Origin: Lentisphaerota bacterium
GTDB taxonomy: Bacteria; Verrucomicrobiota; Lentisphaeria; Victivallales; UBA1829
DNA: 64,000 bases
NCBI GenBank assembly: GCA_015061915.1
Contig: SUVR01000004.1
Coordinates: 124,001 to 188,000 of the forward strand
Direction of reading: 5' to 3'
Shown here: in pieces, positions 9,068-26,146 of the stretch
Position numbering within the stretch: position 1 is the first letter of the stretch
Layout of the letters: every line of letters begins with the position of its first letter
Notes under the pieces: model-generated
What the model saw: the letters and a program-made list of their open reading frames with translations, nothing else
Told to the model about the DNA's origin: nothing
The model's database searches: none
Program-made: the position numbers and the translations under genes

Positions 9068-10072
9068 ATGAAGAAACTCGCATTTGTCGGTTGCGCACAC
9101 ATCCATGCGCCTGCTTTCACCAACTGGACCAATGAACGCAAGGACTCCGTTGAAGTGGCGGCAGTCTGGGATCCCAACCCGGAACTGGCGGCAAAGTATG
9201 CGGAAAAACTTGGCAGCAAAGCTGTTGCTTCCGCCGATGAGATCTGGAACGATCCCTCCATCGAAGGTGTGGTCATTACTTCCGAAACCAATCTCCACGG
9301 CGAACTGGTTGCCAAAGCCGCCGCCGCCAAGAAACAGATGTTTGTCGAAAAACCCATCGGCTTCAACGCTGCTGAAGCAAAAAAGATGGCAGATGCCGTT
9401 GAACAGGCGGGCGTCATCTTCCAGACCGGTTACTTCATGCGCGGTTTCTCCGCTTTCCAGTTCATCAAGGAACAGGTCGAAGCCGGTAATTTCGGAAAGA
9501 TCACCAGAGTCCGTCACTGCAACTGCCACAGCGGCTCCCTCGGCGGCTGGTTCGATACCGACTACAGATGGATGGCGAATCCCGCCATCGCCGGCTGCGG
9601 TGCTTTCGGCGACTTGGGTACTCACTCCCTCGACATCCTTATGTGGATGTTCGGCAAGCCGCAGAAAGTCACCGGCTCCATCCACGTTCTGACCGAACGT
9701 TACGGCAAGGATTGCGATGAATACGGCGAAGCCTCCATGCTCTACAGCAACGGCATGATCGCCACTATCGCCGCCGGTTGGGTGGATTGCCTGAACCCGG
9801 TCGTGATGGAAGTCTGCGGCACGGAAGGTCATGCAGTCGTTATGTGCGATCAGGTCTACTTCACCAGCCAGAAGGTGGAAGGCTCCGACTTCTCCAAGCC
9901 GGTCGAAAACCTCCCCGCTCCCCTGCCCCACGCATTCAACCTCTTCCTCGATGCCTTCATCGACGGCAAGGATGTCCCGCTGGTCAATGTGCAGGATGCT
10001 GCCGACCGCAACCTGGTTATGGAAGCCATCTACCAGGGTGCAAAGGAAGACCGCTGGGTCACCATCGGCTGA
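9068..10072 (+). CDS. Gfo/Idh/MocA-family NAD(P)-dependent oxidoreductase
   Basis: A 334-residue oxidoreductase with an N-terminal Rossmann segment KKLAFVGCAHIHAPAF. The first loop is GCAHIH rather than the classic GxGxxG. The EKPIGFNAAEAK motif (catalytic-domain Lys in EKP) is at about 97, the C-terminal alpha/beta domain starts with the GKITRVRH strand, and CGAFGDLGTHSLDILMW carries the conserved GxHxxD/W site. Such enzymes oxidise or epimerise sugars and inositols. The strong AAGGAG ribosome binding site lies ten bases before the ATG. A terminator at 10097-10125 ends the operon. Confidence 0.88.
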   Translation: MKKLAFVGCAHIHAPAFTNWTNERKDSVEVAAVWDPNPELAAKYAEKLGSKAVASADEIWNDPSIEGVVITSETNLHGELVAKAAAAKKQMFVEKPIGFNAAEAKKMADAVEQAGVIFQTGYFMRGFSAFQFIKEQVEAGNFGKITRVRHCNCHSGSLGGWFDTDYRWMANPAIAGCGAFGDLGTHSLDILMWMFGKPQKVTGSIHVLTERYGKDCDEYGEASMLYSNGMIATIAAGWVDCLNPVVMEVCGTEGHAVVMCDQVYFTSQKVEGSDFSKPVENLPAPLPHAFNLFLDAFIDGKDVPLVNVQDAADRNLVMEAIYQGAKEDRWVTIG

Positions 10073-10096: not shown

Positions 10097-10125
10097 AAGC
10101 ACGGTTTTTACGCCGTGCTTTTTTT
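10097..10125 (+). terminator. Intrinsic terminator after oxidoreductase gene
   Basis: AAGCACGG (10097-10104), eight-base loop, CCGTGCTT (10113-10120), then TTTTT. Confidence 0.85.
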
Positions 10126-10168
10126 GTCTCTTTTTCTGTCATCCGGATCGAAGAAATGCGGGGGGACA

Positions 10169-10558
10169 GGGAAGTGCGTTCCCGTCCGAGTTGTCCGAAT
10201 CATACGGCAAATAAATCCCCCTGTGCCGCAATGAAACGAAGTTGAGTTGGGCGGCACAATGAAAACACCCCTTTGAGGTGAAACAAAAAAAAACCGTGCG
10301 GCAAGCGAGCTTGCGAAGCTGCTTGTCCCACCATAGCTTCAGCAACGGCGGAAGCGGCACAATTAAAACACCCCTTTGAGGTGAAACAAAACCCCCTGTG
10401 CCGCAAACAAGCGAAGCGCAGTTGAGCGGCACAATTAAAACACCCCTTTGGGGTGCTCCCCCTTACCCCCATACTGCGATCAGTCGCCCGTCAAAAACAG
10501 ACCCGTCCGGATCACCGGGGAACGTTTCCCCGGCGACATAAAGGAACAGCGCGTCAAA
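10169..10558 (-). repeat. Composite hairpin-array repeat element, copy A
   Basis: A 390-base intergenic element that recurs in opposite orientation at 25481-25995. One end (10488-10558) carries a 60-base block identical to the other copy, including the perfect hairpin CCGGGGAAACGTTCCCCGG. The other end (10169-10200) carries a block beginning GGGAAGTGC and ending TTGTCCGAAT. Between them are two 35-base and one 65-base modules, each bounded by GTGCCGC and GCGGCAC, separated by linkers with CACCCCTTTGAGGTG-type hairpins. Open frames across it have no ribosome binding site and appear on both strands, so I read it as non-coding. It fills most of the gap between 10126 and the next gene. Confidence 0.85.
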
Positions 10559-10584
10559 CAAAAAGAGGAAAAAAAAGGAATAAA

Positions 10585-11367
10585 TCAGTCTTTTTTGCCG
10601 GCAAGGGAATGGATACTGCGGCTGATCATCTCATAGAGTTCGGCCCATTCCGGATGGTCGGCAAGACAACGCTTATGCTCGGTGATGATGTTCTCATCAT
10701 ACCGGATCGCAGGTCCAGTCTGGGCGGCAGCCGGTTCCAAGTCGTGTACCTTACTGGACGTCTCATCGATCAGCGGCAGCAGATCATCGAAATCCAGCCC
10801 CTTCTCCCGGAGGAGTTCGGAGGCAATGGAAAACATATGATTGGAAAAGTTATTGGCAAAGACAGCAGCAATATGAATGGACTTGCGCTGCTCGGATGTC
10901 ACAACACGCACCCGTTTGGAGATGGCAGTTGCCACCCGCTTCAGCTTCTTGAGCGTTCCCGCAGATTCCGCCTCAATAAACAGTGGGATGGAACTGAAAT
11001 CCAGATCCCGCTTCAGGCTCAGGGTCTGCAGGGGATAAAGCACCCCCCGGTGCTGGGCATAAGGTGCCAGAGAATCCAGGGGCATACTTCCAGCCGTATG
11101 GCAGACCGGAGTCGTCCCGAAGTGGATCTGACGCCATACACCTTCCGCCACGGAATCGCGCAGTGCGGAGATGATCAGATCCGCCTGATCCGCCTTGATC
11201 TCGCTGGGATCATCCGTGTAATCGGCGCCCCCGATCCGTTCCGCCAGACGGGCGGCATGGTCCATCTTCCGGCTGTAGATCTGGGTAAATTGAAAACCCG
11301 CCCGGAACAGAGCAGTTCCGAGCTGGGTTGCGGCATTTCCGCTGCCGAGCAGGATCAGTTTCTGCAT
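10585..11367 (-). CDS. Rossmann-fold/DUF2520 protein
   Basis: A 260-residue protein with an N-terminal NADP-type Rossmann motif (LILLGSGNAATQLGTAL) and a C-terminal helical DUF2520 domain containing the family pattern VFANNFSNHMFSIASELL. It resembles F420-dependent oxidoreductase/ketopantoate-reductase-like proteins; the substrate is unknown. The start at 11367 is chosen because the cyclophilin gene ends at 11372, leaving four bases; a longer frame up to 11481 would overlap cyclophilin. Probably co-transcribed with cyclophilin. Confidence 0.85.
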   Translation of the reverse strand: MQKLILLGSGNAATQLGTALFRAGFQFTQIYSRKMDHAARLAERIGGADYTDDPSEIKADQADLIISALRDSVAEGVWRQIHFGTTPVCHTAGSMPLDSLAPYAQHRGVLYPLQTLSLKRDLDFSSIPLFIEAESAGTLKKLKRVATAISKRVRVVTSEQRKSIHIAAVFANNFSNHMFSIASELLREKGLDFDDLLPLIDETSSKVHDLEPAAAQTGPAIRYDENIITEHKRCLADHPEWAELYEMISRSIHSLAGKKD

Positions 11368-11371
11368 AGGG

Positions 11372-11875
11372 TCATGCACGCTTGACACTGATGATACGGA
11401 CTTCGTCCACCGGAACGTCCTGGTGGAAACCGCGACTGGTCGTGCGGACCGCTTCGATCTGTTTGACCACATCCATACCATCTGTCACCTGCCCGAAAAC
11501 GCAGTATCCGAACATGGAGGGAGTGGGAGCGCGGAAGTCGAGGAAATCGTTATCCGCCACATTGATGAAGAACTGGCTGGTCGCACTGTCCACCACATTG
11601 GTCCGTGCCATGGCAATGGTGCCGATCTTATTGGAAAGTTTGTTGCCGGCTTCATTCTTGATGGGAGCATTGGTCTTTTTCTGGCTCATACCGAAATCCA
11701 TACCGCCGCCCTGAATCATAAAACCGGGGATCACGCGGTGAAAGATGGTGCCGTCATAAAACGCCGCATCCACATATTTCAGGAAGTTTTCAACAGTAAT
11801 GGGAGCTTCCTTTTCAAAGAGTTCGATCGTGATCGTACCAAGCGATGTTTCCATTTTGACAACAGGGTTTGCCAT
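11372..11875 (-). CDS. Cyclophilin-type peptidyl-prolyl cis-trans isomerase
   Basis: A 167-residue single-domain cyclophilin without signal peptide, so cytoplasmic. It shows [25 protein letters not shown], the catalytic-arginine motif [31 protein letters not shown] and FGYCVFGQV. It catalyses proline isomerisation in protein folding. It lies 24 bases downstream of ptsI. Confidence 0.93.
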
Positions 11876-11899
11876 GATTTCAATATCCTTCTGTTCGGG

Positions 11900-13735
11900 T
11901 TAAAAACCTTTATTCATTTTTGCGATCGAGGGAGCGATCCGGGCGATCAGTTCCTTGCAGCGGCTTGCCGTGTAGGCAGAGTTTGCTTCTCTGCGGACAT
12001 CCTTCACCAGCGATTCCGCCTCACGCATGGATAGTCTGCGGATGATCCGTCTGACCGGAGGCAGAGCACCGGGACTCATACTCAATTCCTGTACGCCCAA
12101 ACCAACCAGCAGCGGGGTAAACAGGGGATCGCCTGCAAGTTCCCCGCAGCAGCTGATCCAGATCTGATTTTCCCGTGCCGCCCCGGCTGCTGCCGCAATC
12201 AATTCGATCACAGCAGGGTGCATGGGGTTGTAAAGCTTTGCGACCTTTTCATTGCTCCGGTCAACTGCCAGCGTATACTGAACCAGGTCATTACTGCCAA
12301 TGGAGAAGAAGTCCGCTTTCTTTGCCAACTGATCTGCGATCAAAGCGGCGGAGGGGATCTCGATCATGATCCCGATATCCATATCATCATTAAAACTCAG
12401 ATCCCGCTCCCGCAATTCATCCTTCAGCTGTTCCAGCAGGTTCAGCAAGCCGTCCAGTTCTTCAACACTTGACACCATCGGGAACAGGATCTTGATGTCG
12501 CCATAAACACCAGCCCGAAGCAACGCCCGCAACTGATTCTTCAGCAGTTCAGGACGACTGAGACCAAGCCGGATCGCACGCATCCCCAAAAACGGGTTGG
12601 GTTCTTTCGGCAGGGAAATGGCTGCATCGAACTTATCTCCCCCCACATCCAATGTCCGGATGATAATCGGCTGTCCGGGCATACTTTCCGCCAGCGTTTT
12701 ATAGACCTGAAATTGCGTTTCTTCGTCCGGCAGGACCGGTTTGTTCATAAAAAGATATTCTGTCCGGAAAAGCCCGATCCCTTCCGCACAACTTTTGCGG
12801 ATTTCCTCAATTCCATCAATTCCCTCCACATTTGCCATCAACTGGATCACATAACCATCCGTTGTTTCAGCCAACATCCGGTTTTCTTTTTCCAGCTCCG
12901 AGAGCAACCGTTCCTGGCGACAGAGTTTCTCTGTATAAAACTCAATTGTCTCCGGGTTCGGATGAATGATGACCATCCCCAGATAGCCGTCAATGATGAC
13001 CTTATCGCCATCGGTCAACCGTTCAAAGATCCGGCGCATACCGACAACTGCGGGAATTTTCATAGAGCGGGCGAGGATTGCGGTATGGGATGTGGGACTT
13101 CCCGTTTCGATAGCAAATCCGATCACGTGGGAACGATCCAGCGTTGCGGTATCGGAAGGAGTCAAATCCCGTGCGATCACAATTACCGGTTCCGAAAAGG
13201 ATGCGACCTTTTTCTTATCCGCCAGTCCATCCAGATGAGCAAGGATTCTGTTTGCCACATCCTGAATATCTGCCGCCCGCTCCCGGAGATACTGGTCCGG
13301 CATACTGGACATGGCAGAAATATAACGTTCAATCGTCTGCTTGAAAGCGGTTCTTGCGGAAAGCAATTTTTTCTGAATCAGACTGATCACTTCTGTGCTG
13401 AGCATCCGGTCGTCAACGATCAGCAGATGGGCATCAAAGATTGCCGCCTCGCGTTCATCCAGAGAATCACGGAGCGTGGATTGCAAGTCCTTGATCTCGT
13501 TACGGGTCTGCTCCAGAGATTGTCTGAAAAGTTCAATTTCCGTTTCGATATTTTCCGGCAAGATCAAAACAGACTCGTTGGAAACGATATGTTTTTCCTG
13601 AGAACCGGAAAGATAGACCGGCGCAATGGCAATCCCCGGCGATGCCGGAATTCCATGGAAGAGGATTTCTTTTTTTTCGGAGACCATTTGCAATGATCCA
13701 CCGATCACGCTCTGTTCATTCTTCATCGAATCCAC
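11900..13735 (-). CDS. ptsI: PTS enzyme I (phosphoenolpyruvate-protein phosphotransferase)
   Basis: A 611-residue enzyme I, which passes phosphate from PEP to HPr. The N-terminal domain contains the phosphohistidine motif GSPTSHTAILARS. The PEP-binding C-terminal barrel shows LFRTEYLFM, RTLDVGGDK, NPFLGMRAIRL, MIEIPSA, DFFSIGSNDLVQY and ISCCGELAGD with the catalytic Cys. I chose a GTG start at 13735 because GGAGGAG lies ten bases upstream. ATG 13726 or 13687 are alternatives. It overlaps the HPr gene by 20 bases. No enzyme II gene is in the window. Confidence 0.92.
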   Translation of the reverse strand: MDSMKNEQSVIGGSLQMVSEKKEILFHGIPASPGIAIAPVYLSGSQEKHIVSNESVLILPENIETEIELFRQSLEQTRNEIKDLQSTLRDSLDEREAAIFDAHLLIVDDRMLSTEVISLIQKKLLSARTAFKQTIERYISAMSSMPDQYLRERAADIQDVANRILAHLDGLADKKKVASFSEPVIVIARDLTPSDTATLDRSHVIGFAIETGSPTSHTAILARSMKIPAVVGMRRIFERLTDGDKVIIDGYLGMVIIHPNPETIEFYTEKLCRQERLLSELEKENRMLAETTDGYVIQLMANVEGIDGIEEIRKSCAEGIGLFRTEYLFMNKPVLPDEETQFQVYKTLAESMPGQPIIIRTLDVGGDKFDAAISLPKEPNPFLGMRAIRLGLSRPELLKNQLRALLRAGVYGDIKILFPMVSSVEELDGLLNLLEQLKDELRERDLSFNDDMDIGIMIEIPSAALIADQLAKKADFFSIGSNDLVQYTLAVDRSNEKVAKLYNPMHPAVIELIAAAAGAARENQIWISCCGELAGDPLFTPLLVGLGVQELSMSPGALPPVRRIIRRLSMREAESLVKDVRREANSAYTASRCKELIARIAPSIAKMNKGF

Positions 13736-14003
13736 GATTGATCAGCTCCTCCAGCGCAGCCATAGCAGCTTCACAATCTGCGCCACTGATTTCGATTCGC
13801 AAAGTCGTGCCTTTCGGGGCAGCCAGCATCAGCATCCCCATAACGCTTTTGCCATCAGCACACTGGTTGGAAGACATATTCCGGACATTGATGTCTGATT
13901 CAAAGGTGAGCGCCGTTTGCACAAAAATAGAAGCCGGTCTGACATGAAGACCGTTCGTATTTTGTAAAACCAGTTCTTTTTTCAAAGACTTAATGCTGCT
14001 CAT
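13716..14003 (-). CDS. ptsH: Phosphocarrier protein HPr
   Basis: A 95-residue HPr with the active-site histidine in NTNGLHVRPASIFV (about residue 21) and the regulatory serine region GKSVMGMLML, which in many bacteria is phosphorylated by HPr kinase. Length is slightly above the usual 85-90. It is first in an operon with ptsI, read from the promoter at 14060-14088. Without enzyme II genes nearby it may work mainly in regulation (PTS-Ntr-like) or with EIIs elsewhere. Confidence 0.92.
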   Translation of the reverse strand: MSSIKSLKKELVLQNTNGLHVRPASIFVQTALTFESDINVRNMSSNQCADGKSVMGMLMLAAPKGTTLRIEISGADCEAAMAALEELINRGFDEE

Positions 14004-14059
14004 TATCGCCGTTTCCTGTTGTGTATGATGTGCATTACAACTTCCGCTTGCTTTATTAT

Positions 14060-14088
14060 AATATACATCCGGAAACGGGATTTTTCAA
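14060..14088 (-). promoter_or_regulatory. ptsH-ptsI promoter
   Basis: TTGAAA (14083-14088), 17 bases beginning AATCCCGTTT, TATATT (14060-14065), reading leftwards. The rest of the gap to 14297 is AT-rich and shows no further feature I can support. Confidence 0.7.
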
Positions 14089-14297
14089 GGCGGCAAAACG
14101 GTACAATCCGGTAAACGCCCTTTTTATCGTGCGAAAAACCTGCTTGTTTTTCGGGAAAACTTACTTGTTTTCTTTCAAGTTACAAAAAAGCAAAAATTTT
14201 TCTGACTTTTTTGAAAAAAATATTTTACATCCCGGCAAAAAAAGTCATCGAAGCTACACAATAAAATCGCAAAAGAATTTGAAAATTAACCGGTTGT

Positions 14298-14852
14298 TTA
14301 TTGCGTGACTCGCTTGAAACCGCACATTTTCAACAGTGCATCCTGTTCGGGCATAACCTGCATTTCAAAAATTGCGGTATCACCACCATCAACAACCTTT
14401 TCGACAAGGTCTGCATTGATCCTGACCAGCCTTGTTTTTCCGTCATCCGTTGGAAAGATTGTAAAAGAACACGGCAGGATCGCAGAAATACTGCGCCGGC
14501 GCTCCGTATTCAACAGCCGTTTTGCATACTCTTTATGACATAACTTAAACACAGTGATGTTTCCGGGGAGTTGGCAATATTCCCGTGTAACACTCCAGCC
14601 CGGAAGTGCAGCGCCCTGTTTTTCAAAAAGCGCAACCGCTTCCTCATAAGACAATTCAGTTTCATAAGTCAGGAGCAAATTATTCTGCAAATACCGTTCA
14701 CAGGAGCCGGCAATATTGTTCCGGACAAACAAAAAAGCAAAAATGGCAAACAGCGTTCCACCGCACACCATTCCGATCAATAATATACACAGCTCCCGTT
14801 TCCAGGAGATATTTTTTTTATGTTCACTCACCGAATCGGTTTCACGCTCCAT
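14298..14852 (-). CDS. Membrane-anchored DUF302-domain protein
   Basis: A 184-residue protein with one N-terminal membrane helix at about 19-43 (ELCILLIGMVCGGTLFAIFA), followed by a DUF302-like domain. The domain signature is seen in ITVFKLCHKEYAKRLLNTE, ILPCSFTIFPTDDGKTRLVRIN. In the family a Cys and the LPC segment line a putative ligand pocket; the function is unknown. The domain should face the periplasm. It follows the MarC-like gene by 13 bases and is probably co-transcribed with it. Confidence 0.75.
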   Translation of the reverse strand: MERETDSVSEHKKNISWKRELCILLIGMVCGGTLFAIFAFLFVRNNIAGSCERYLQNNLLLTYETELSYEEAVALFEKQGAALPGWSVTREYCQLPGNITVFKLCHKEYAKRLLNTERRRSISAILPCSFTIFPTDDGKTRLVRINADLVEKVVDGGDTAIFEMQVMPEQDALLKMCGFKRVTQ

Positions 14853-14865
14853 TGCATTTACCCTC

Positions 14866-15480
14866 TTACTGTAACCAGAAACCTTTTGCTCCGGTAAAGA
14901 TCATTTCCGCAGCAAGGGCGGATAAAATCAAACCGGTAAGTTTACTCAAAATAACGATCCCCTGATGTTTCAGAATCTTTTGCAGAAAATCCGAACCGCG
15001 CAGAATAAAAAACAGGGCGGTGTGAGCAAGGAGCAGTCCGCCGGTATAGATCAGCAGCGAACAGATCGAATTTGCATCTGCACCGAAAATCATCAAAGCA
15101 CCGGTCGTGGCAGGTCCAACCGTTACCGGGATGGCAAGCGGCACCACTGCAATGTCAGATTCCACTTCCGATGATTTATTTTTGACCTTTTCGGCTGCAC
15201 CGCCGACCAGTTGGATCGCAGACAGGAAAAGAAGCACACCGCCGCCGATCCGGAAGGCGTTCAGGGTAATTCCAAAAACATAGAAGATCCATCTGCCAAA
15301 CAGCAGGATCACCATACAGGCGATCAATGCCGCTGTAACAACCTTCCATGCGAGCAGTCTGCGTTTTTCCGAAGAATAATCCTTCGTGACCGAAAGGAAC
15401 ATAGACAGCACAAAGAACGGTGTCAGCAGAAAAAAGAATTTCAGCGAGACACTGATCAGATCGGACACATAATGCAACAT
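14866..15480 (-). CDS. MarC-family inner-membrane protein (second copy)
   Basis: A 204-residue six-helix membrane protein of the MarC family. It shows FFLLTPFFVLSMFLSVT in the first helix and the family motif DIAVVPLAIPVTVGPATTGALMI in the middle. It is clearly divergent from the MarC-like protein at 6094-6714, so this is not a recent duplication. It lies 31 bases after the TPR-protein gene and 13 before the DUF302 gene. Confidence 0.9.
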   Translation of the reverse strand: MLHYVSDLISVSLKFFFLLTPFFVLSMFLSVTKDYSSEKRRLLAWKVVTAALIACMVILLFGRWIFYVFGITLNAFRIGGGVLLFLSAIQLVGGAAEKVKNKSSEVESDIAVVPLAIPVTVGPATTGALMIFGADANSICSLLIYTGGLLLAHTALFFILRGSDFLQKILKHQGIVILSKLTGLILSALAAEMIFTGAKGFWLQ

Positions 15481-15511
15481 CGTTCCGACTCCGTATCTTA
15501 ATTAAAGCATT

Positions 15512-16897
15512 TTATTTGTTGTAATTTGCAGCCACCCGGTCCTTCACATCCCGGAATGTGATATCAGCAGAGTAGATCTGCTTGAAGCAGGAGAAGGCAT
15601 CTTCTTTCTTACCCATCGCTTCATAGGTCAAGCCGAGGCTGTAAAGAGTTTCCAGCTTCTGTTCATCAGCACCCAGCATATCTTTAAGCGCAGAAAGATA
15701 CTGCTCAACAGCCATATCATACTGACCCTTCGCCTGGAAACAGCGTCCCATATAAACAATAGCAGTAACGCGTTTCTGGGGGTGTCTCTGCGCCAGCTGG
15801 AACTGTTCCAGCGCATCATCAACACGAGTTCCCTGCCAGTAAAGTTCAGCAAGCTCGAAGCGGAGCTGGAGGTCGTTGGGATACTGCCGGACACGGTCTT
15901 CGCAGCGACCGAGCCGGTAGTTGTAAATTTCTTCTTCCTGTTCCTTGATATCTTCTTCTGTGCAGCCGGAGGCATGCATCGCTTCGAGGTTCTTCGTTGC
16001 GATACCCACATTGGCTTTTTCGATTGCTTTATCGATAGAGGGGTCAAGGGTCCCCATCTTTTCAACGATCCAGTTATAATGCTCCAATGCTTTCTCGAAC
16101 TGCTCCAAACGCATATAGTATTCAGTGAGTTTTCTGCGGTAGTCAATGGAGTCCGCTTCAGGTGCGCCGGAAGCGATCTTTTCTTCTGCGGCTGCGATTT
16201 CCGCCTGGATATCTTCCTCAAGCCGGATGATCTTGTCACCGGCAGATTTCGGATCGGCATTTTCGCGTTTCTGAATGGTGCTGCCCTGACCTTCGTCTTT
16301 GCTCCAGGTACTCGTCATCGTTGCCAGAGCTGCTGCCTCGCGGACCTTTGCCTGCAGTTCAAGGCTGTCCGGATGAAGGTCTGCAAGTTTCTGACGGATT
16401 TTCAGGACATTGTTGCCGTCTTTGACTTTTTCATAAAGTTCGCAAAGTTTGTTCAGATTCTGTTCATTCGCCGGTTCTGTTTCACGGATGATTTCCAATG
16501 CTTCGATTGCAATAAAGTGTGCTTCGGCAACTTTTGCTGCATCTGCCAATGTGTTCAGAGCTGCAGAGGAGTAGAGATAAATGGCAAGTGCTTCTTCAAT
16601 ATCGCTCATCGCTGCTTTCGGATTTTTAGACATAGTGCCTTTGGCCCGAACCAAAAACTTACCGGCCTTGAGCTGTCCCAGGAACTTCTTGAAACCACCC
16701 ATAGCATCGCTGTAGTTACGTTCAGCAGTACGGAGAGCTTCCCGTGCCTCCATAAAACCGGGTTCACGCTGAACAACAAACTTCAAAAGCTCGATAGCAT
16801 ATTTGACATTGTTTTTATTGAGCTCATTCTGCCCCTTCTGAAACTGAGTGCGCAGATTCGTGGATACATCTTTTAAACTTTTCTTTTCGATTGCCAT
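15512..16897 (-). CDS. Cytoplasmic tetratricopeptide-repeat protein
   Basis: A 461-residue, highly charged helical protein with TPR-like repeats through its length (for example EQFEKALEHYNWI, DDALEQFQLAQRHP, GQYDMAVEQYLSAL, GKKEDAFSCFKQI). It has no signal peptide. Residues 1-40 are amphipathic and rich in Lys/Gln. It should act as a protein-interaction scaffold; the partner is unknown. The start at 16897 (MAIEKK) is chosen over an upstream ATG at 16927 because the extra ten residues are not typical of a protein start. Similar proteins are frequent in the PVC superphylum. Confidence 0.85.
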   Translation of the reverse strand: MAIEKKSLKDVSTNLRTQFQKGQNELNKNNVKYAIELLKFVVQREPGFMEAREALRTAERNYSDAMGGFKKFLGQLKAGKFLVRAKGTMSKNPKAAMSDIEEALAIYLYSSAALNTLADAAKVAEAHFIAIEALEIIRETEPANEQNLNKLCELYEKVKDGNNVLKIRQKLADLHPDSLELQAKVREAAALATMTSTWSKDEGQGSTIQKRENADPKSAGDKIIRLEEDIQAEIAAAEEKIASGAPEADSIDYRRKLTEYYMRLEQFEKALEHYNWIVEKMGTLDPSIDKAIEKANVGIATKNLEAMHASGCTEEDIKEQEEEIYNYRLGRCEDRVRQYPNDLQLRFELAELYWQGTRVDDALEQFQLAQRHPQKRVTAIVYMGRCFQAKGQYDMAVEQYLSALKDMLGADEQKLETLYSLGLTYEAMGKKEDAFSCFKQIYSADITFRDVKDRVAANYNK

Positions 16898-17033
16898 GTT
16901 CGGACTCCAACAGTTGTATTTTTGCAAAAATGCAGTATATTATTTGATGCGGATATATTAACAGCACTTTCGCCTTATTGCAAGCGTTGTTTTATATTTT
17001 TTTGAAAAAATTTCAAGCTTTCAGGTGGTTTTA

Positions 17034-18386
17034 ATGCAAAAAATAATGACAGATGATACAATTTGTGCTATATCGACTGCTCCCGGCGGTGCATTAGCCA
17101 TTTTACGGCTTTCCGGTCCGGCATCCGCTGAAATCGCGGAAAAAGTATGGTTCTCGAAAGGCGTTCCGCTGCATGAGACAAAGCGGGTTATGCGGCTCGG
17201 ACATACTCTATCCGCAGATGGCGAAACTTGCCTTGCCGTCTTTATGCCGGGACCTCACAGCTATACCGGAGAAGACGTTGTCGAATTACAATGTCATGGC
17301 GGAGATTTCGCACCGGATCGATTGTTGAAAGCATTACTGGCAAATGGTGCCCGGCTGGCAGATCCCGGTGAGTTTACACGGCGGGCATTCCTTAATGGAA
17401 AAATGGACCTGACGCAGGCCGAAGCGGTCCTGGATCTGATCCAGGCCCGTACTGCCGATGCAGCAAGTCTGGCAGAACGGCAGCTTTCCGGTGTCCTGGG
17501 AAAAAAGATCAGTGAAACAGCAAAGGATCTTCCCGGAGTGCTTGCAGAAATCGAATCCCGTCTTGATTTTCCTGAGGAAGATTTGGATTGGCGTTCACCG
17601 GAAGAATTGATCGCCGTCATTGCACCGGTTTTGGATAAGATCCGTGCGCTTTTAGCCGGCAGCAGAGCCGGCTCTATAATCCGGAACGGAGTCAGACTTG
17701 TAATCGCAGGTGCCCCGAATGTGGGAAAGTCCAGTTTGTTGAACCGGATTCTCGGCTACGACCGTGCGATCGTAACGGAAATCCCGGGGACGACACGCGA
17801 TACTGTAGAGGAAAATGCTGTGATTCGCGGAATTCACTTCCGCCTGACCGATACCGCCGGCGTTCGTGAAGATGCCGCAGACAAAGTCGAGGAATTCGGC
17901 ATTAAACGTTCCAAAGAATCCCTGAAGTCGGCAGAAGTCGTGATCTGGCTTTTGGATTTAACACAAGAACATGAACCACAGCTCCGTGAAATGGAAAAAC
18001 GGGTTGCGGATGCAGAATGTCATGCAAAAGTAATACACTGCTGGAACAAGAAAGATATTGCATTACAAACTGGCAAATTCCCGTGCGAAGTTTCTGTGGA
18101 AAACGGCGATGGTATTGAGATGCTGTACGATGAACTGGCAAAAGCCGTTTTTACAGAACCGGGAGAGCGGGAATCGGAAAGTGCCATTGCTCAGCGACAC
18201 GAAAAACTGTTGAACGAAGCATTGACCCGGTTGGAATCTGCGATTCCGGAACTGTGCGCAGAGGCATGGGAGTTGGCTGCAGTCCATATCCGGGAAGCAA
18301 TTTATGATCTGGGAACGATTACCGGTGAAAACGTTTCACCCGATGTTCTGGATGAAATTTTTTCCAGGTTCTGCATCGGCAAATAA
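17034..18386 (+). CDS. mnmE: tRNA uridine-5-carboxymethylaminomethyl modification GTPase MnmE
   Basis: A 450-residue MnmE/TrmE, which with MnmG makes the cmnm5 modification on U34 of tRNAs. The N-terminal formyl-THF-binding domain has DTICAISTAPGGALAILRLSGP. The central G domain has GAPNVGKSS (about 226-234), GTTRDT and DTAG. The C-terminal helical domain ends with the invariant FCIGK, whose Cys is needed for activity. ATG 17034 is preferred because AGGTGG lies just upstream; GTG 17025 is the longer option. Transcribed alone, divergent from the TPR gene. Confidence 0.96.
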   Translation: MQKIMTDDTICAISTAPGGALAILRLSGPASAEIAEKVWFSKGVPLHETKRVMRLGHTLSADGETCLAVFMPGPHSYTGEDVVELQCHGGDFAPDRLLKALLANGARLADPGEFTRRAFLNGKMDLTQAEAVLDLIQARTADAASLAERQLSGVLGKKISETAKDLPGVLAEIESRLDFPEEDLDWRSPEELIAVIAPVLDKIRALLAGSRAGSIIRNGVRLVIAGAPNVGKSSLLNRILGYDRAIVTEIPGTTRDTVEENAVIRGIHFRLTDTAGVREDAADKVEEFGIKRSKESLKSAEVVIWLLDLTQEHEPQLREMEKRVADAECHAKVIHCWNKKDIALQTGKFPCEVSVENGDGIEMLYDELAKAVFTEPGERESESAIAQRHEKLLNEALTRLESAIPELCAEAWELAAVHIREAIYDLGTITGENVSPDVLDEIFSRFCIGK

Positions 18387-18472
18387 CAAGCCAAATAACA
18401 GTTTTTCACTCTATTTGTAAAAATCTTACACCATTTTCGTGGTTTTTTTTAACTTTTTTCTGCATTGAGGAC

Positions 18473-18501
18473 TTGACTTTCTCCTTTTTTCATTCTATCT
18501 T
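18473..18501 (+). promoter_or_regulatory. Promoter of LamG/glycosidase-like operon
   Basis: TTGACT (18473-18478), 17 bases, TATCTT (18496-18501), about 60 bases before the start codon. Confidence 0.7.
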
Positions 18502-18564
18502 ACCCTGATATTATTTATTAAAATTGATCAAGAACATCTGAAATTTTCAGGAAAGGTTTTCAGA

Positions 18565-21231
18565 ATGAAAAAACATTTGCTCTCTGCTCTGCTTTTGTGT
18601 TTTTCTGTTGCATTAACTGCCGCACCGCAGTTGCCAAAACAGGATCCGCTGGTCGACTTTACCGAAATCAAGACTGACAATGGAAAATGGATCGATAAAA
18701 CCGGTAATGCTGTAATCACACCGGGAAAAACGGCAAAGGAAGGCGTAGGACCATTCGGTAAAAAAGCCTTCTGTTTTGATGGAACGAGAAGTTCCGTTTC
18801 CTCATTGGACCTGAGCAAGATTTTTGCAAAACTGGATGGATTCGACTATTCTCTTTCTTTCTGGTTCAAATGCGATAATTTTCTGAACACGAAAGAAAAT
18901 AATCAGGCAGCCGGAAATTATATCGGGATCGGCATGAAAATGAATTCTCTGGAACACGCCACATTCAGCATCGGCGGTATCGGTCGTGGCGGCATCGGGT
19001 CCGGCTGGTTCCAGATCAATCCGAAACGTTGGAATCATTTAGCGGTTGTATACTCTCAGGAAAAGCGTATGGCACGCCTTTACATCAACGGCTTGGCGAT
19101 CGTCGACAGCAATGGCGGAAAATTCTGGCCGCTGGATCAGGCAGGATACAAAGTCCTGAATATCGGCGGTTTCAAAGGAACTCTTGCTGATGTCCAAATC
19201 TGGGATAAGCCGATCCCGCCGGAACAGGTCCTCAACATGACGCTCACGCCCGAATATGTGAAGTCTCTTCATGCGGATATTGATGACATCACCGCAAAAT
19301 GCGATAATGCCCCCGGCGCTGTGCTGATGACCGGCATCCTGCATGATGAACTGGATAAACTTGCCGCCATGAAGCCCGTCCCCATGCTGGCTTATGACAA
19401 ACTGCTCAAACGCCTTGCTGCCACGGAAAAAATGATCCCGGCAGTCAAAGCTCTCCGCAAAACAAAACTGGTGAATGCACCTTTTGCCTATATGCAGGTC
19501 CGGGCGATCAGTCCTGAAATCCGGATCCCCACCAAATATCCCTCCGACCCCGTTTATTCCGATGAACTGAAGGGAACTGCGGCAAAAGGTGAATATGCCT
19601 CCCTCTCTTTCATTATGTATCCATATATGGATATGAAGAAGATCGAGTTTGAGCTGAACGATCTGAAGGACAGCAAGGGCAATGTGATCGGCAAGGACGA
19701 ACTGGAACTCAAGTTTGTCCAGTGCTGGTATCAGCCCGGCTGGAATACCTACTTCAACGGGTCCGGCAACTACGTGCCCAGCCTTCTGCTGAACGACCCG
19801 GAACTGCTCCGGATCGATGAACGGACAAAGACCAACTATGTCCGCTTCTTCTATCCAGACGGCGTGCAGTACCACAACGTGTGTATCCCCGGCAGTACGG
19901 TGACCCACCCCGAATTCAACTGGGCTTTTGAACCGGTTTGGGATGCGGATACACTCCAGCCGATCCCCTGTGATTTCGGACGGAATCGTCAGTTCTGGCT
20001 GGTTGCTCACGCCCCGGAAAATGCCAAAGCCGGCATCTATCGCGGACCGATCAAGATCAAGACCGAAGGCAAAGTCACCGGCGAGATCACTCTTGAGCTG
20101 AAGGTCCTGCCTTTTTCTCTTCCCATGCCAATGACGCAGTTCGATCACAGCCTGCCTTTCGATCCATCTCTCGCAAGCAGCATCAATGTGGACTCCATGA
20201 CCGCAACACTGAAAGACCCCAAGCGTGCGGAAGAAATGACGATCGCTCACATGATGAACCAGCGCAAGCACAGCATCCTTTCCCAGCCCCTCGGCATTTC
20301 TGTTGCCAGACCGGAAAGTCTGAAAAAGATGATCGAACTTCACAAGCAAATGGGACTCCGCATTACCAATATGTATGGCGGTGCAGCTCATACAAAATTC
20401 CGTGAATTCGGCGATACCAGACCGTATTGGACGACAATGGAAAAGCACATGGTGGAAGCGGAGCTGGCAAAACACAAAGCCCATGTCGATCAGGTCGCCG
20501 CTCTGGCTGACCGTTTCGGACTTGACCGGAAATATATCTTCTTCTATGGAAAAGACGAATGTCAGGGCGCAAACGGTCTCCGGGAAGAATTCCCGTTCCG
20601 TGACTACATTTTCCGCAACGGTATGAGAACCAGAACCACCGGTTGGGAAGACAACTACCGAAACTCTCCCTCCCACGAAACCTATCATACCACTGCAGCC
20701 TATGTCTCTTACAGAAATGCAGACCGCTGGCATGCCATGCGTGCCCAGATCACCGCGTACTGCGCCCCCTTCATGGGACCGGACAACCCGCACCTGATGC
20801 GCTACACTCACGGGCTCGTCCCCTTCCGTCATAACTATGATGGTTGGTGGGAACTGGCGTATGCCGGAAGCGCTCACGAATGGAACAACCGCTTTGGCTG
20901 GGATACCACCTACCGCCCGTTCCGAGTGGCGGTCCTGACGCAAAAAGGTCCCATCATCAACACCATCGCCTTCAGCGGTGTCCGTGCCGGACAGGACGAC
21001 GTCCGTTACGCAACGCTTATGTATCAGTTGGCGGATGAATGTTTCAAAACCGGCAAGCCTGAATGTATTATCGCTGCCAGAAAGGCAATCGCCTGGTTCA
21101 GAGGACAGCCCATGCCTACCGGTACGCCGGGGATCAGTATGTCTATGGATATTGACCTGTATGACTACCGTGAAAAAGTAACATATCACATCATTTCCCT
21201 GATGAAAGTCCTCGGAAAAACCATTGAATAA
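18565..21231 (+). CDS. Secreted LamG-domain plus DUF4091-like glycosidase-type protein
   Basis: An 888-residue exported protein. Residues 1-20 form a signal peptide ending ALTAA. Residues 30-230 look like a concanavalin/LamG-type lectin domain (FCFDGTRSSV, YSLSFWFKCDN, WNHLAVVYSQEKRMARLYINGLAI, VQIWDKPIP). After a helical linker, residues 320-880 resemble DUF4091/glycosyl-hydrolase-like domains (AGIYRGPIKIKTEG, LKVLPFSLPMP, YIFFYGKDEC, then a Trp- and Tyr-rich barrel-like part). It probably binds and trims a polysaccharide outside the cytoplasm; the specificity is unknown. First of a likely operon with a secreted TPR protein and cysK. Confidence 0.75.
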   Translation: MKKHLLSALLLCFSVALTAAPQLPKQDPLVDFTEIKTDNGKWIDKTGNAVITPGKTAKEGVGPFGKKAFCFDGTRSSVSSLDLSKIFAKLDGFDYSLSFWFKCDNFLNTKENNQAAGNYIGIGMKMNSLEHATFSIGGIGRGGIGSGWFQINPKRWNHLAVVYSQEKRMARLYINGLAIVDSNGGKFWPLDQAGYKVLNIGGFKGTLADVQIWDKPIPPEQVLNMTLTPEYVKSLHADIDDITAKCDNAPGAVLMTGILHDELDKLAAMKPVPMLAYDKLLKRLAATEKMIPAVKALRKTKLVNAPFAYMQVRAISPEIRIPTKYPSDPVYSDELKGTAAKGEYASLSFIMYPYMDMKKIEFELNDLKDSKGNVIGKDELELKFVQCWYQPGWNTYFNGSGNYVPSLLLNDPELLRIDERTKTNYVRFFYPDGVQYHNVCIPGSTVTHPEFNWAFEPVWDADTLQPIPCDFGRNRQFWLVAHAPENAKAGIYRGPIKIKTEGKVTGEITLELKVLPFSLPMPMTQFDHSLPFDPSLASSINVDSMTATLKDPKRAEEMTIAHMMNQRKHSILSQPLGISVARPESLKKMIELHKQMGLRITNMYGGAAHTKFREFGDTRPYWTTMEKHMVEAELAKHKAHVDQVAALADRFGLDRKYIFFYGKDECQGANGLREEFPFRDYIFRNGMRTRTTGWEDNYRNSPSHETYHTTAAYVSYRNADRWHAMRAQITAYCAPFMGPDNPHLMRYTHGLVPFRHNYDGWWELAYAGSAHEWNNRFGWDTTYRPFRVAVLTQKGPIINTIAFSGVRAGQDDVRYATLMYQLADECFKTGKPECIIAARKAIAWFRGQPMPTGTPGISMSMDIDLYDYREKVTYHIISLMKVLGKTIE

Positions 21232-21255
21232 CGGAAAGAGAAAGGATATACGATC

Positions 21256-22680
21256 ATGAAACATAAATTTCTTCTGACAATGACTCTCCTTTCCGCCCTC
21301 AGCATCTCTGCTGTTGCCGGGGAATATGAAAACTACATCAAAGAAGCGGAAGGTGCATCTCTGGAAAAACGCATTGAACTCTGGCTGAAAGCTGCCGATT
21401 CCACTGCGGACAACACAAAGAAATTGACCATGTACCGTCAGGCGTATGAACTGGCGAAACGGATCAATGACGAAAAAAGCATCCTTTATCTGGCGGATAC
21501 GATCTATAAATTCCCCGGAGTGCCCGAAGCAGAAAAACAGGAAGCACGCTACCAGTTTCTGGTTGTCGCCCGCAACAGCGCCCGCAGGACGCTGAACTAC
21601 GAAGGGCGTTTCTCAAGATTACGGATCGTTATGGATGGCGTTACCCCGCAGGATTATAAAGATTTTCTGAAGACCCCCGGCATTACGCCGGAACGGGAAA
21701 AGAAAATCTCACTCATGCTGGCATCCATTCTTCATGATTACAATCTCTGGTATCAGGAAATCGAATTGCGCAAGAAATTGCTGGAACGGACGGACCTGAC
21801 TTCCACGGAACGGCAGGACCAGTATCTGATCCTTTCCAGTGTTTATCTTTCTATGAACAACATGGCGGATTCTGTGAAAAGTCTCCGGTCGCTGCTGGCA
21901 ATCAAGTCCCTGACGCCGGATCGCCGGATCCGCACACTGATCATTCTCGGCGATACCTTCCGCAAGGGGTATGGCTGGTATTACTATCCCAACGCAGAGC
22001 AGTACAAGGAAATGTCAGACAGCTACAAAGCTGCCATGGATCTTTCCGCCAAGCGCCGCAGAGGGGGGTATTATAATCAGGCATTGCTCAAGATGATCGA
22101 AGGTGCCCACTTTCTGGAAAAATCCGCAGATGTCGTGAAACTGTGCAACCGCTATATCAACAATAACAAACTGGTTGACGGCAGCACCTGGAAAAAAGCG
22201 AAAACGCTGGAGGGGACCCATCTGCTCAAGTTGAACCGTTATCCCGAAGCGATTGCCATCTTTGAAGACCTTTACAAGTATAAACACGACCTGGCGAACA
22301 CCTGTATGTCCCTCGGTCAGAGCTATTATCTCAACGATGACTTTTCCATGGCACTCGGTATGTATGATGAAGCGATCGTAGAGCTGGGTATGGACGATAG
22401 CGCCCGGCCGAGACAGTGCAAAAACTGGTGCAACACGCTGCGCGGTCTGCTGGGCAAGAAAGCCCGGCTGGATGCGGCTTATGTTGCCCGTGCCAAGCGT
22501 TTGAATGCAGAAGCCAAGGCCGCCGGAAAAGCTCCGGTTGTAAAAGTCAACACCCCGGACTCCCTGAATCCGTTTGCCAATCAGAAAGTCCCGAAAAAGA
22601 AACCCAAAACGATGGAAGATCTGATGAAGTCTTCTGATGACGGTCCGGACCTGCTTGGCGGCGGCTTGAATCTGGATTAA
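21256..22680 (+). CDS. Exported TPR-like protein
   Basis: A 474-residue protein with a signal peptide (residues 1-21, ending AVAGE) and helical TPR-like repeats (EKRIELWLKAADS, TKKLTMYRQAYELAKRI, YPEAIAIFEDLYKYK, DFSMALGMYDEAIVEL). The C-terminal 60 residues are Lys/Pro-rich and end in DDGPDLLGGGLNLD. Function unknown; by position it may form a complex with the LamG protein, whose gene ends 24 bases upstream. AAAGGA precedes the start. Confidence 0.75.
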   Translation: MKHKFLLTMTLLSALSISAVAGEYENYIKEAEGASLEKRIELWLKAADSTADNTKKLTMYRQAYELAKRINDEKSILYLADTIYKFPGVPEAEKQEARYQFLVVARNSARRTLNYEGRFSRLRIVMDGVTPQDYKDFLKTPGITPEREKKISLMLASILHDYNLWYQEIELRKKLLERTDLTSTERQDQYLILSSVYLSMNNMADSVKSLRSLLAIKSLTPDRRIRTLIILGDTFRKGYGWYYYPNAEQYKEMSDSYKAAMDLSAKRRRGGYYNQALLKMIEGAHFLEKSADVVKLCNRYINNNKLVDGSTWKKAKTLEGTHLLKLNRYPEAIAIFEDLYKYKHDLANTCMSLGQSYYLNDDFSMALGMYDEAIVELGMDDSARPRQCKNWCNTLRGLLGKKARLDAAYVARAKRLNAEAKAAGKAPVVKVNTPDSLNPFANQKVPKKKPKTMEDLMKSSDDGPDLLGGGLNLD

Positions 22681-22689
22681 AAGGTTACT

Positions 22690-23613
22690 ATGGAAAAGAT
22701 CAAAAATTCCATTCTGGAGACGGTTGGCTCAACGCCGTTGGTCCGGATCAATCAGCTCAATACCGGGAAAGCAGAAATTCTGGTCAAAGTAGAATCCCGC
22801 AACCCCGGCGGAAGTGTGAAAGACCGTGTTGGTATCGCCATGGTGGAGGATGCGGAAAAGCGCGGCTTGATCAAGCCCGGTGCCTGCATTGTGGAGCCGA
22901 CCAGCGGCAATACAGGAATCGGTCTGGCGGTCGCTGCTGCAGTAAAAGGCTATAAGTTGATTCTGACCATGCCGGATACCATGAGTATTGAACGGCGCAA
23001 ACTTCTGGCTGCTTTCGGCGCAAAGATCGAATTGACTCCCGGTGCGGAAGGAATGAGCGGCGCCATTGCCAGAGCAAAAGAGATCCTGGCGGAAAATCCC
23101 GGTTCGTGGATGCCCCAGCAGTTTGAAAATCCGGCAAATCCAGCCGCCCATTACGCTGCTACCGGTCCGGAGATCTGGGACGATTGCGGCGGCAGGATCG
23201 ACCTCTTTGTAGCCGGTGTCGGAACTGGTGGAACGCTCTCCGGCGTGGCAAAATATCTGAAAGAAAAAGATCCGGCGGTGCAGGTCGTTGCGGTGGAGCC
23301 GGCGGATTCCCCGCTTCTTTCCGGAGGTACTGCCGGTCCGCATAAATTGCAGGGGATCGGGGCGAATTTTATTCCTGCCACTCTGGATCGTTCCTGCGTG
23401 GACCGGGTCATCCCTGTGACGGATCAGGATGCGGGGGAAACCGCCCGTGCCTGTGCTGCCCGGGAAGGGATTTTGATCGGGATCTCCGGCGGAGCTGCGC
23501 TCTATGCTGCACTGACCCTTTCCGCAGAGCCGGAAAATACCGGAAAGCGGATCGTTGTGTTGCTGCCGGACAGCGGTGAGCGCTATCTCTCCAGTTGGCT
23601 TTTTGCCGAGTGA
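22690..23613 (+). CDS. cysK: Cysteine synthase A (O-acetylserine sulfhydrylase)
   Basis: A 307-residue PLP enzyme that makes cysteine from O-acetylserine and sulfide. The lysine motif NPGGSVKDR is at 38-46, with the substrate loop PTSGNTGIG, the phosphate loop GVGTGGTLSG, KLQGIGANFIP and the C-terminal LPDSGERYLS. Length and motifs are those of CysK. It starts nine bases after the TPR gene and converges on zwf with only three bases between the stops, so no separate terminator fits there. Confidence 0.94.
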   Translation: MEKIKNSILETVGSTPLVRINQLNTGKAEILVKVESRNPGGSVKDRVGIAMVEDAEKRGLIKPGACIVEPTSGNTGIGLAVAAAVKGYKLILTMPDTMSIERRKLLAAFGAKIELTPGAEGMSGAIARAKEILAENPGSWMPQQFENPANPAAHYAATGPEIWDDCGGRIDLFVAGVGTGGTLSGVAKYLKEKDPAVQVVAVEPADSPLLSGGTAGPHKLQGIGANFIPATLDRSCVDRVIPVTDQDAGETARACAAREGILIGISGGAALYAALTLSAEPENTGKRIVVLLPDSGERYLSSWLFAE

Positions 23614-23616
23614 ATC

Positions 23617-24993
23617 TCAACGGAAAAACGGTACTGCCGGACCGGTTGAACCAGCCTCATAAATGACCGGATCGCCCTTCATATTCTGCACCGGATCCAG
23701 CAGTTGCCACGCTGCCCGGATGGAATCGGAGCGGATAAACAGCATCCGGTCATCCAGCATGGTATCCAAGAGCAGCCGTTCGTAGGCATCCGGCATATTT
23801 TCACCGGAAAGGCTGGCATAGTTAAAATTCATATCCAAAGCACCCATACAGAGTTTGGGGCCGGGGTGTTTCGCCTGAATCGTCAAGCTCAAACCTTCCT
23901 GCGGCTGAATGGAAAATACCAAACGGTTTTGAACCAGCGCCTCTGCCGGAATTCCGGGAAAGATGGAGTCATCCTGACGGCGGAAACGGACTTCGATTTC
24001 TGTTCGTTTTTCAGCGAGTTTCTTACCGCAGGAAAGGTAAAACGGCACCCCGCGCCACCGCTCGTTATCAACAGCAAGGCGGGCAGCAAAATAAGTTTCC
24101 GTCTTTGATTCCGGATCCACTCCGGGTTCTTCCCGGTAACCGGCGTATTGTCCGAAAATGACATCTTCCTTTTTCAGGGGAAGAATCGCCCGGATGAGCT
24201 TTGTTTTTTCGTCATGGAGGGCATCAGCAGTAAATGCTCCGGGCTTTTCCATCGCCACGAGTGACATCAGTTCCAACATATGATTCTGAAACATATCCCG
24301 CACGATTCCGGTCCGGTCAAAATATTTTGCCCGGTTTTCCACGCCCAGCGTTTCGCTGACGGAGATACGGACCGACTCAATATTTTCCCGATTCCAGAGC
24401 GGCTCAAAGATCCGGTTGGCAAAACGGAAGAAAAAGAGGTTCTGGACCGTTTCCTTACCCAGATAGTGATCGATCCGGAAGATCTGTTCCTCCCGCAGGA
24501 TCCGGTGCAGACGGTTGTCAAAAGCGGTGGCACTGGCAAGGTCACTGCCGAAGGGCTTTTCCAATACGACCCGGGTATGTTCTGTGATGATACCATCACT
24601 GCTTAAAACATCCAGCAAGTCCATATAAATATCCGATGGCAAAGAAAGGTAAAAGACATTTTCCGATGGCAAAGGACAGGCTTCTTTCAGCGACTCAAGA
24701 TGACCTCGCAAGGCAGTGCGGACGGCAGGTTCAAAGCTGTCGCCGCAGATGGTATCGATCCGGGCCAGAAAATCCGATGGATAAAGACCGGAGAGATCTT
24801 TGGCAGTCCGGGCGCAGGCAATGATCCGCGAACGTTCATGCAGGAGTCCGCTCCTGTGAAGCTGATACAGCGCAGGAAAGAGTTTCCGCTGCGCCAGATC
24901 CCCGTTCGCCCCGAATACGACCAGCCGGACCGGCAACGGCATAACTTCCATACAAAAACCGCCACGCCAGCGGAATGTTTCCTGTCCCTCCAT
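23617..24993 (-). CDS. zwf: Glucose-6-phosphate 1-dehydrogenase
   Basis: A 458-residue enzyme for the first step of the oxidative pentose phosphate pathway. It has the coenzyme motif VVFGANGDLAQRKLFPALYQL, then EKPFGSDLASA, the substrate-binding signature RIDHYLGKETVQN (His/Lys catalytic region) and a RDMFQNHMLELM motif. The start at 24993 overlaps the stop of the zinc-ribbon gene as TGATG, so the two are coupled. The expected partners (6-phosphogluconolactonase, Gnd) are not in the window. Confidence 0.95.
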   Translation of the reverse strand: MEGQETFRWRGGFCMEVMPLPVRLVVFGANGDLAQRKLFPALYQLHRSGLLHERSRIIACARTAKDLSGLYPSDFLARIDTICGDSFEPAVRTALRGHLESLKEACPLPSENVFYLSLPSDIYMDLLDVLSSDGIITEHTRVVLEKPFGSDLASATAFDNRLHRILREEQIFRIDHYLGKETVQNLFFFRFANRIFEPLWNRENIESVRISVSETLGVENRAKYFDRTGIVRDMFQNHMLELMSLVAMEKPGAFTADALHDEKTKLIRAILPLKKEDVIFGQYAGYREEPGVDPESKTETYFAARLAVDNERWRGVPFYLSCGKKLAEKRTEIEVRFRRQDDSIFPGIPAEALVQNRLVFSIQPQEGLSLTIQAKHPGPKLCMGALDMNFNYASLSGENMPDAYERLLLDTMLDDRMLFIRSDSIRAAWQLLDPVQNMKGDPVIYEAGSTGPAVPFFR

Positions 24994-25370
24994 CAAAGCA
25001 GTTCCCGCTTTTCGTATTGAGGGCAGTCATCCATGGGACCGACATCCCTGTCGTGCAGGGAGCAATAGATCCGAAAGGCATTCATGACCCGGTGCTTACA
25101 GTCACGGCAGAAACGGCGTTCCGTTTGTTCAAAGGGGTTGGCGATTTTTTCGGTGTCGTCGCCGCCAAGCAATGCTGCCAGAGCATTGGTCTTCGGTGCA
25201 GCAGGCTCTGCGGTTGCGGCTGATACTTCTTTGATCTCTTCCACCAGCACACCGCAGGATGCACACTTGAGGACCTCACCGACTTTGGTCCAGCCATCCA
25301 TTACCGATTCTTTCTTCAAAAAGGAACTGTTCCCGCAGTGGGGACAATCCCAGGAATCACCGACTTTCAT
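24993..25370 (-). CDS. Double zinc-ribbon protein, unknown function
   Basis: A 125-residue protein with two metal-binding parts. The N-terminal ribbon is CPHC (residues 9-12) paired with CASC (about 36-39). The C-terminal cluster is FCRDCKHRV...IYCSLHDRDVGPMDDCPQYEKRE. The middle (45-80) is Ala/Pro-rich and likely flexible. It may bind nucleic acid or act as a metal- or redox-dependent regulator; I do not recognise a family. It is translationally coupled to zwf and read from the promoter at 25414-25441. Confidence 0.75.
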   Translation of the reverse strand: MKVGDSWDCPHCGNSSFLKKESVMDGWTKVGEVLKCASCGVLVEEIKEVSAATAEPAAPKTNALAALLGGDDTEKIANPFEQTERRFCRDCKHRVMNAFRIYCSLHDRDVGPMDDCPQYEKRELL

Positions 25371-25413
25371 TGCTGATCTACTCCTTCATCGAGACTTGTT
25401 TCTTGCTCCTTAC

Positions 25414-25441
25414 AAGGTAGCACAGACCGCTGAAAAATCAA
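25414..25441 (-). promoter_or_regulatory. Promoter of zinc-ribbon-zwf operon
   Basis: TTGATT (25436-25441), 16 bases, TACCTT (25414-25419), reading leftwards. Confidence 0.5.
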
Positions 25442-25480
25442 GAGGGATCTTTGTTTCAGACCTGTTTTTTAAGGCTTTTG

Positions 25481-25995: not shown

Positions 25996-26085
25996 GGTAT
26001 CCCCGGTATCCCCATAATAAATCAGCACTCCGGGCAGGTCCGCCATCGTGAAAAATTATTTTTTCGCAAACAGAGGATTGCGGAC

Positions 26086-26113
26086 TTGATTTTTTGGAAT
26101 GAGAGCGTATTTT
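26086..26113 (+). promoter_or_regulatory. Promoter of DUF2062 gene
   Basis: TTGATT (26086-26091), 16 bases, TATTTT (26108-26113), about 35 bases before the start codon. Confidence 0.55.
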
Positions 26114-26146
26114 ACCAGAAAAAACAGTAATAGAGAAAGAGATCGT

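Follow-up and report, generated by a model that had tools for sequence, protein, structure and literature searches.

BOX elements of Streptococcus pneumoniae have the layout boxA-(boxB)n-boxC, with predicted stem-loops and a number of middle units that varies between strains, and a connection with the ends of ISSpn2 has been suggested for them (PMC3049150). The pneumococcal SPRITE repeats are terminator-like and are enriched near gene 3' ends (PMC3049150). REPs are palindromic, intergenic repeats of 20-40 bp that lie near gene 3' ends, some of them tagged with CGTC (PMC3733652). The BoxC/PIT intrastrand-triplex motifs of E. coli are dispersed and intergenic, occupy loci that are more variable than controls, and follow the consensus CCCTCNCCC N3-6 GGGNGAGGG N3 GGGNGAGGG (PMC4666352). 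The descriptions given here, and the comparisons drawn from them, follow excerpts of the three papers. Here we report a family of small composite repeats in a Lentisphaerota genome, two copies of which, A and B, lie in the window, that is, the whole stretch of 64,000 nucleotides that was analysed. The family is of a known general kind and is new to the literature matches listed, among which (mostly titles and abstract openings) there was no paper on Lentisphaerae or Victivallales repeats or on this repeat family.

The likeness of the family to BOX, SPRITE, REP and BoxC/PIT is one of layout and placement as described in these sources, and sequence relation forms no part of it. As in BOX, a fixed head is followed by a variable number of tandem middle modules, and the TCGGAC tail that is recognisable by eye in several copies may answer to the end module, the two families being compared by description only. 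Unlike BOX, the present family has mixed unit types, heads that stand mostly behind gene 3' ends, 14 copies, and head-only copies, of which three were seen (L013, L016 and, in the sister species, L065); a partner of the ISSpn2 type, proposed for BOX in the excerpted source, was not found for it. A SPRITE, as described, is itself the terminator-like hairpin, whereas the head of the present family usually follows a separate one. The REP likeness consists of CGTC/GACG beside hairpins (a tag likeness judged by eye), and the differences from REPs as described are a head of about 116 nt with two helices and arrays that are direct repeats of larger units. Membership of the REP/RAYT group, understood as a 20-40 nt palindrome tagged GTAG together with a Y1 transposase, was rejected, the unit size being different and the Y1 match truncated. 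Membership of BoxC/PIT was rejected as well: the head has GGGGG-TAA/TAG-GGGGG but, by eye, without the order CCCTCNCCC, GGGNGAGGG, GGGNGAGGG.

The explanation that we consider probable is that these are genus-restricted, mobile composite repeats that recombine with one another, the A and B inversion included. Each element has a fixed, base-paired head of about 116 nt followed by hairpin units in variable number, and several copies end in a short tail. Such elements would spread as non-autonomous units, occupied and unoccupied states being seen at two sites, and would settle with the head just behind a gene 3' end, usually after a terminator. Inverted copies, being long and similar enough to recombine, would then rearrange the chromosome, and one exchange between A and B would have inverted a segment of about 15 kb in one of the two lineages. 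A poorly studied gut lineage would in this way gain a defined small-repeat family, one by which the chromosome appears to have been rearranged between close relatives.

Two genomes were central to the comparison. The own genome (G000) is 2.49 Mb in 31 contigs, with the window on contig C10. The sister genome (G001), Lentisphaeria bacterium RGIG8655, is a water deer cecum MAG of the same genus, 72% complete, and was the sole same-genus genome compared. Both assemblies are draft, and caution is advised, as draft assemblies in this group break at the elements. The parts of A and B, their neighbouring genes and the segment between them are listed below in window coordinates.

10169..10558, minus strand: copy A, whole element; the head is the right end and the reading direction is leftward
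10455..10558, minus strand: head of copy A, from the BLAST match at G000:C10:134455-134558 and the alignment; its large hairpin has no right arm (13 nt)
10214..10454, minus strand: array of copy A, with hairpin units short, long, short
10169..10213, minus strand: tail of copy A (TTTGCCGTATGATTCGGACAACTCGGACGGG), holding the 10 bases that a preliminary description had read as an insertion
10483..10547, minus strand: 65-nt block identical to the reverse complement of 25492-25556 in copy B (B coordinates from the arm register)
25481..25998, plus strand: copy B, whole element
25481..25596, plus strand: head of copy B, with large hairpin arms at 25539-25551 and 25584-25596
25597..25959, plus strand: array of copy B, one short hairpin unit followed by three long ones with a period of about 100 nt
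25960..25998, plus strand: tail of copy B (TTCGGACAATCCGGACGG...), without the TTGCCGTATG stretch
9068..10072, plus strand: GFO/IDH/MocA oxidoreductase gene (Pfam), outer, tail-side neighbour of A
10585..11481, minus strand: DUF2520 gene (Pfam), inner, head-side neighbour of A
24993..25370, minus strand: gene for a 125-aa cysteine-motif protein (Pfam Lar match under the cut-off), inner neighbour of B, 5' end toward the head
26099..26683, plus strand: DUF2062 gene (Pfam), outer, tail-side neighbour of B
10559..25480, no strand: segment between the heads, with cyclophilin, ptsI, ptsH, mnmE, a PLP enzyme read as cysK, zwf and others; apparently inverted relative to the sister species

Copies A and B are non-coding and form inverted composite repeats, with about 14.9 kb between the heads, which point inward at each other, and with the tails outermost. 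That they face each other, as the preliminary description had it, is borne out by inverted arms at 10455-10587 and 25452-25584 (133 nt, 88% complementary, with more arms continuing through the arrays) and by a BLAST alignment of element A with element B at 88% over 321 columns (E 7e-117). The same description had given about 60 identical bases including a perfect 19-base hairpin; the longest exact match is 65 nt (10483-10547 in A) and contains CCGGGGAACGTTTCCCCGG, a 19-nt hairpin with a stem of 8 bp and a loop of 3 nt. It had also correctly counted two short units and one long in A, where we read the order short-long-short; the order in B is short-long-long-long. A regular expression for the units gave stems of 35, 65, 65 and 65 nt in B, and missed the long unit of A and the units of L006 and L045; its final match in L010 falls outside the element, and it was used for unit length and tails only.

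The head of A is without 13 nt, namely the right arm (CCGTCAAAAACAG) of the large hairpin, which is present in all 13 other own-genome heads, the first C being replaced by T in L013 and L016. The tail of A holds CATACGGCAA (10201-10210), the reverse complement of TTGCCGTATG. Previously described as a short insertion, this stretch has counterparts in L009 of the own genome (TTGCCGCATG) and in L038, the G001 element beside A's outer flank (TTGCCGCGTG), so that a loss in B is more likely than an insertion in A; judged from these tails, the 10-base difference is probably a loss in copy B.

The own genome contains 14 heads, the weakest match standing at 2.4e-20 and the next at 0.25, and a covariance model recovers the identical 14. 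Copies A and B, earlier treated as a pair, are two of these 14 copies of one family. In full copies the structured head is followed by an array of hairpin units that varies from copy to copy and, in several cases, by a TCGGAC tail, which was recognised by eye, unaligned, in A, B, L004, L007, L009, L010 and L011 and is absent from some copies. Most counted units are a 35-nt stem-loop, the 65-nt form being counted in B. The earlier view that units are gained or lost independently of the ends agrees with the family at large, in which heads are conserved and arrays differ among copies.

The head measures 115-119 nt in 13 own-genome copies (about 116 nt) and is shorter in copy A; it starts with TTTGACG and ends with CGTCAAA. 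The head alignment (A1) combines a single G001 head with 13 from the own genome; the other G001 heads were left out, and copy A was omitted because it is without one hairpin arm. Two helices, of 12 and 13 pairs, are paired in 350 of 350 cells of these 14 sequences, with G-U allowed. Three double changes in helix 1, which all fall in a single sequence (L016), leave its pairing intact, and helix 2, the large hairpin, which is a 13-bp perfect inverted repeat, has one variable pair. Covariation support for the head structure is modest because the large hairpin hardly varies. By eye, L065 of G001 carries the same changes as L016, and a small extra hairpin within the second helix seems conserved.

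The head of B is nearest to that of L005, and the head of A to those of L006, L007 and L041; as A and B are not nearest to each other, there is no sign of a recent head exchange between them. Six G001 heads have a positional counterpart in the own genome. Three are nearest to it (L036 to L006, L058 to L009 and L065 to L016), and those at B, L004 and L005 are nearer to other copies, a mixed pattern such as would be expected if heads were being exchanged.

G001 gave 10 head matches with the covariance model, two of them cut by contig ends. Of the 36 family genomes searched, the remaining 34 yielded no head at E 0.001, 103 candidates of the first look being scored in every genome, and the head family appears, on these searches, to be restricted to the genus. 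Array-unit stretches of 34-38 nt were matched in G007, G008 and G017, three of the 19 other relatives examined; these three genomes, which belong to other genera or families, have a hairpin of the CCGCCATAGCT type, similar to the long unit, without a head (L030, L031, L032, L034 and L035). Hairpin units of the family also form a headless array in the own genome, a short way past the end of a gene (L017 and L019, G000:C1:46298-46472). Two additional CTGTTTTTGACG matches, on C21 and C25, were inspected and are not heads. In a scan of public contigs, RGIG8655 accounted for 10 of 32 matching stretches and other organisms for 22, and no exact match to an 18-base head pattern was found in IMG/VR.

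Two sites bear on mobility. At L041 and L047 the element is present in G001 only, and the homologues of the flanking genes stand in order, headless, on one G000 contig. The intergenic sequence at these sites differs too, so a target duplication is unreadable and there is no clean empty site. The counterpart of the L041 site (L123, around 115 kb on G000:C21) holds a different G+C-rich insert. As to MITE features, the TTTGACG/CGTCAAA head ends are observed, and neither a clean empty site nor, among the matches to the head pattern, an autonomous partner element was found. A RAYT/IS200 mover found no support, as there was no intact Y1 transposase, the single transposase family tested: the sole genome match to Y1_Tnp is a truncated IS200-like fragment on the headless contig C1 (L127, G000:C1:73958-74134), with a 78-aa ORF and a 94-aa open frame.

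The orientation of the gene on the head side was taken from a codon-usage score, chosen over ORF orientation because long antisense ORFs confound the latter; 13 of the 14 own-genome copies could be scored, L008 being unscorable. In 12 of these 13 copies the head-side gene has its 3' end toward the head, 26-115 nt away. The sole exception is copy B, where the 5' end of the 125-aa gene is toward the head. All four copies whose flanking genes run in the same direction (L003, L009, L010 and L013, a small number) have the head on the 3' side. Ten of the 14 own-genome copies, and five of the seven G001 rows tested, have a terminator-like hairpin with a T run ahead of the head. Polarity agrees in 5 of 6 G001 rows scored, and disagrees in L038, the bearer of copy B's flank; because some G001 rows correspond in position to own-genome copies, the two placement sets are not independent of each other. 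The placement of heads behind gene 3' ends is a striking pattern, testable in further genomes, and may reflect targeting or selection. A bolder proposal, which we think has little chance of being right, is that a mobilisation system puts the structured head, in one polarity, right behind terminators, and that the dispersed arrays are preferred inversion sites in the genus.

The same placement, together with the paired head, would also be expected of an element that is primarily a functional RNA or a terminator at gene 3' ends and that rearranges the chromosome only as a side effect. Terminator-like sites do exceed shuffled sequence in two 800-base regions (5 against a shuffle mean of 1.4, and 10 against a mean of 1.4), of which two and one, respectively, lie outside the elements. 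However, a terminator-like hairpin is already present ahead of the head at the 10 of 14 copies mentioned, at each of the two mobility sites just one of the species carries the element, and Rfam gave no match above the gathering score in window 9900-26200. We regard such a primary function as possible but unlikely, and return to the mobile repeats and their recombination.

The order of genes around A and B differs in the sister species. G001 contig C123 (8.3 kb, L038) carries window 8751-10127, an element, and then window 25659-23952 reversed, giving the gene order queH, aminotransferase, GFO/IDH, element, 125-aa gene, zwf, cysK. In the window, the oxidoreductase lies outside A, and the 125-aa gene and zwf lie inside B, 15 kb off and in opposite orientation. 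B's outer flank, from DUF2062 onward, is on G001 contig C201 (L045), adjoining a head inside which the contig ends. The arrangement on C123 and C201 is the prediction of an exchange between A and B, visible at one junction of two; for the inner flank of copy A, window 10.58-18.1 kb is unmatched in the 72%-complete G001 except for one 92-nt piece. The preliminary description had held that the repeats can recombine and flip the 10.6-25.4 kb segment, and had suggested a comparison of gene order with close relatives. That comparison, made with the closest relative, shows an inverted join at the element of C123, which upholds the flip as a difference between species, with the predicted order at one junction.

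There is good evidence that A and B bound an inversion between the sister species; an exchange between them would have inverted the segment of about 15 kb in the own or the sister lineage, with one junction seen directly and homologous recombination as the presumed means. Twelve regions around the 125-aa gene, from 12 other family genomes, show no conserved neighbours, only weak matches (25-32% identity) to three other window proteins, and so favour neither direction of the inversion.

A draft genome mis-joined at a dispersed repeat could give a difference in order of the same kind. The repeats do break assembly: the G001 contigs of L037, L045, L048 and L058 end inside elements, and at the L004 site the contigs of L037 and L048 both end in heads, which differ from each other. 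Against such an artefact, the exact matches of the L038 element extend to at most 63 nt with L045, which makes a simple mis-join of those two unlikely, and never exceed 96 nt with the nine other G001 loci examined (its internal repeat is 61 nt), and A and B share only 65 nt. In addition, a second inversion has its two junctions on a single contig. We therefore consider an assembly artefact improbable as the source of the difference, and recombination between elements the better account.

This second inversion concerns about 10 kb of G000 contig C9 (about 154.55-164.4 kb), with both junctions on G001 contig C83. L005 of G000 and L043 of G001 have the head side in common and the tail sides swapped, with an element copy at one breakpoint. 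An IS-like repeat with CTGTTGCAAAACTG ends is also present and may instead have mediated this inversion, and the other G000 breakpoint is without a head.

The remaining element sites gave a varied picture. The flanks of L012 and of L013 fall on separate G001 contigs, where they are element-free and have different neighbours, a synteny difference that could also come from genes gained or lost. The head side of L016 may differ in G001 (L074 compared with the 15 bases ahead of the L065 head). Order is conserved at L006 and its counterpart L036, so that elements do not always mark breaks. One or both flanks of L003, L007, L008, L009, L010 and L011 are unmatched in G001 (40 of 71 first-look candidates scored). 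As a control, G001 contigs C293, C16, C279, C44 and C184 (about 29 kb) were compared with element-free parts of the window and are collinear with them nearly end to end, apart from a stretch of about 0.9 kb, at C279, that is present in the own genome only. This control covers a single region, in which unmatched gaps separate the contigs, and matches of at most 435 nt elsewhere were treated as paralogues and excluded.

Some of these sites would also suit passive elements, that is, inversions made by IS elements or replication-associated events, with the repeats surviving or inserting at the breakpoints. The IS-like repeat at the L005/L043 breakpoint, the headless second breakpoint in G000 and the L012 and L013 flanks, element-free and with other neighbours in G001, point that way. 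Against it, elements stand in G001 beside B's outer flank (L045) as well as at the visible A/B junction (L038), and A and B of G000 are mutually inverted, which homologous exchange requires; we hold a purely passive role to be quite improbable. A dedicated site-specific recombinase switching the 15-kb segment through the head (phase variation) is scarcely credible, for although the head is conserved and holds a 13-bp perfect inverted repeat, no recombinase was found among ten neighbouring or inner genes scanned with Pfam, the segment carries housekeeping genes, and copy A is without one arm of the repeat.

Several other repeats were noted. The second dispersed repeat, CTGTTGCAAAACTG...CAGTTTTGCAACAG, is nested in the array of L005 (G000:C9) and occurs also on G001:C83 (L068), C52 (L074) and C111 (L069); it adjoins rearranged or contig-end flanks and is IS-like or MITE-like. 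In the window, long direct repeats of 147-248 nt, spaced 298-342 nt and 88-95% alike, occupy positions 1-787. A 10-nt perfect tandem repeat, TTTTTTGCAT, is present in 3.6 copies at 1330-1365. A tandem array of 27/33 nt (GCACCTGCACCCGCTCCGGTCGTTGTG) at 56268-56380 perhaps codes for a Pro/Ala-rich repeat.
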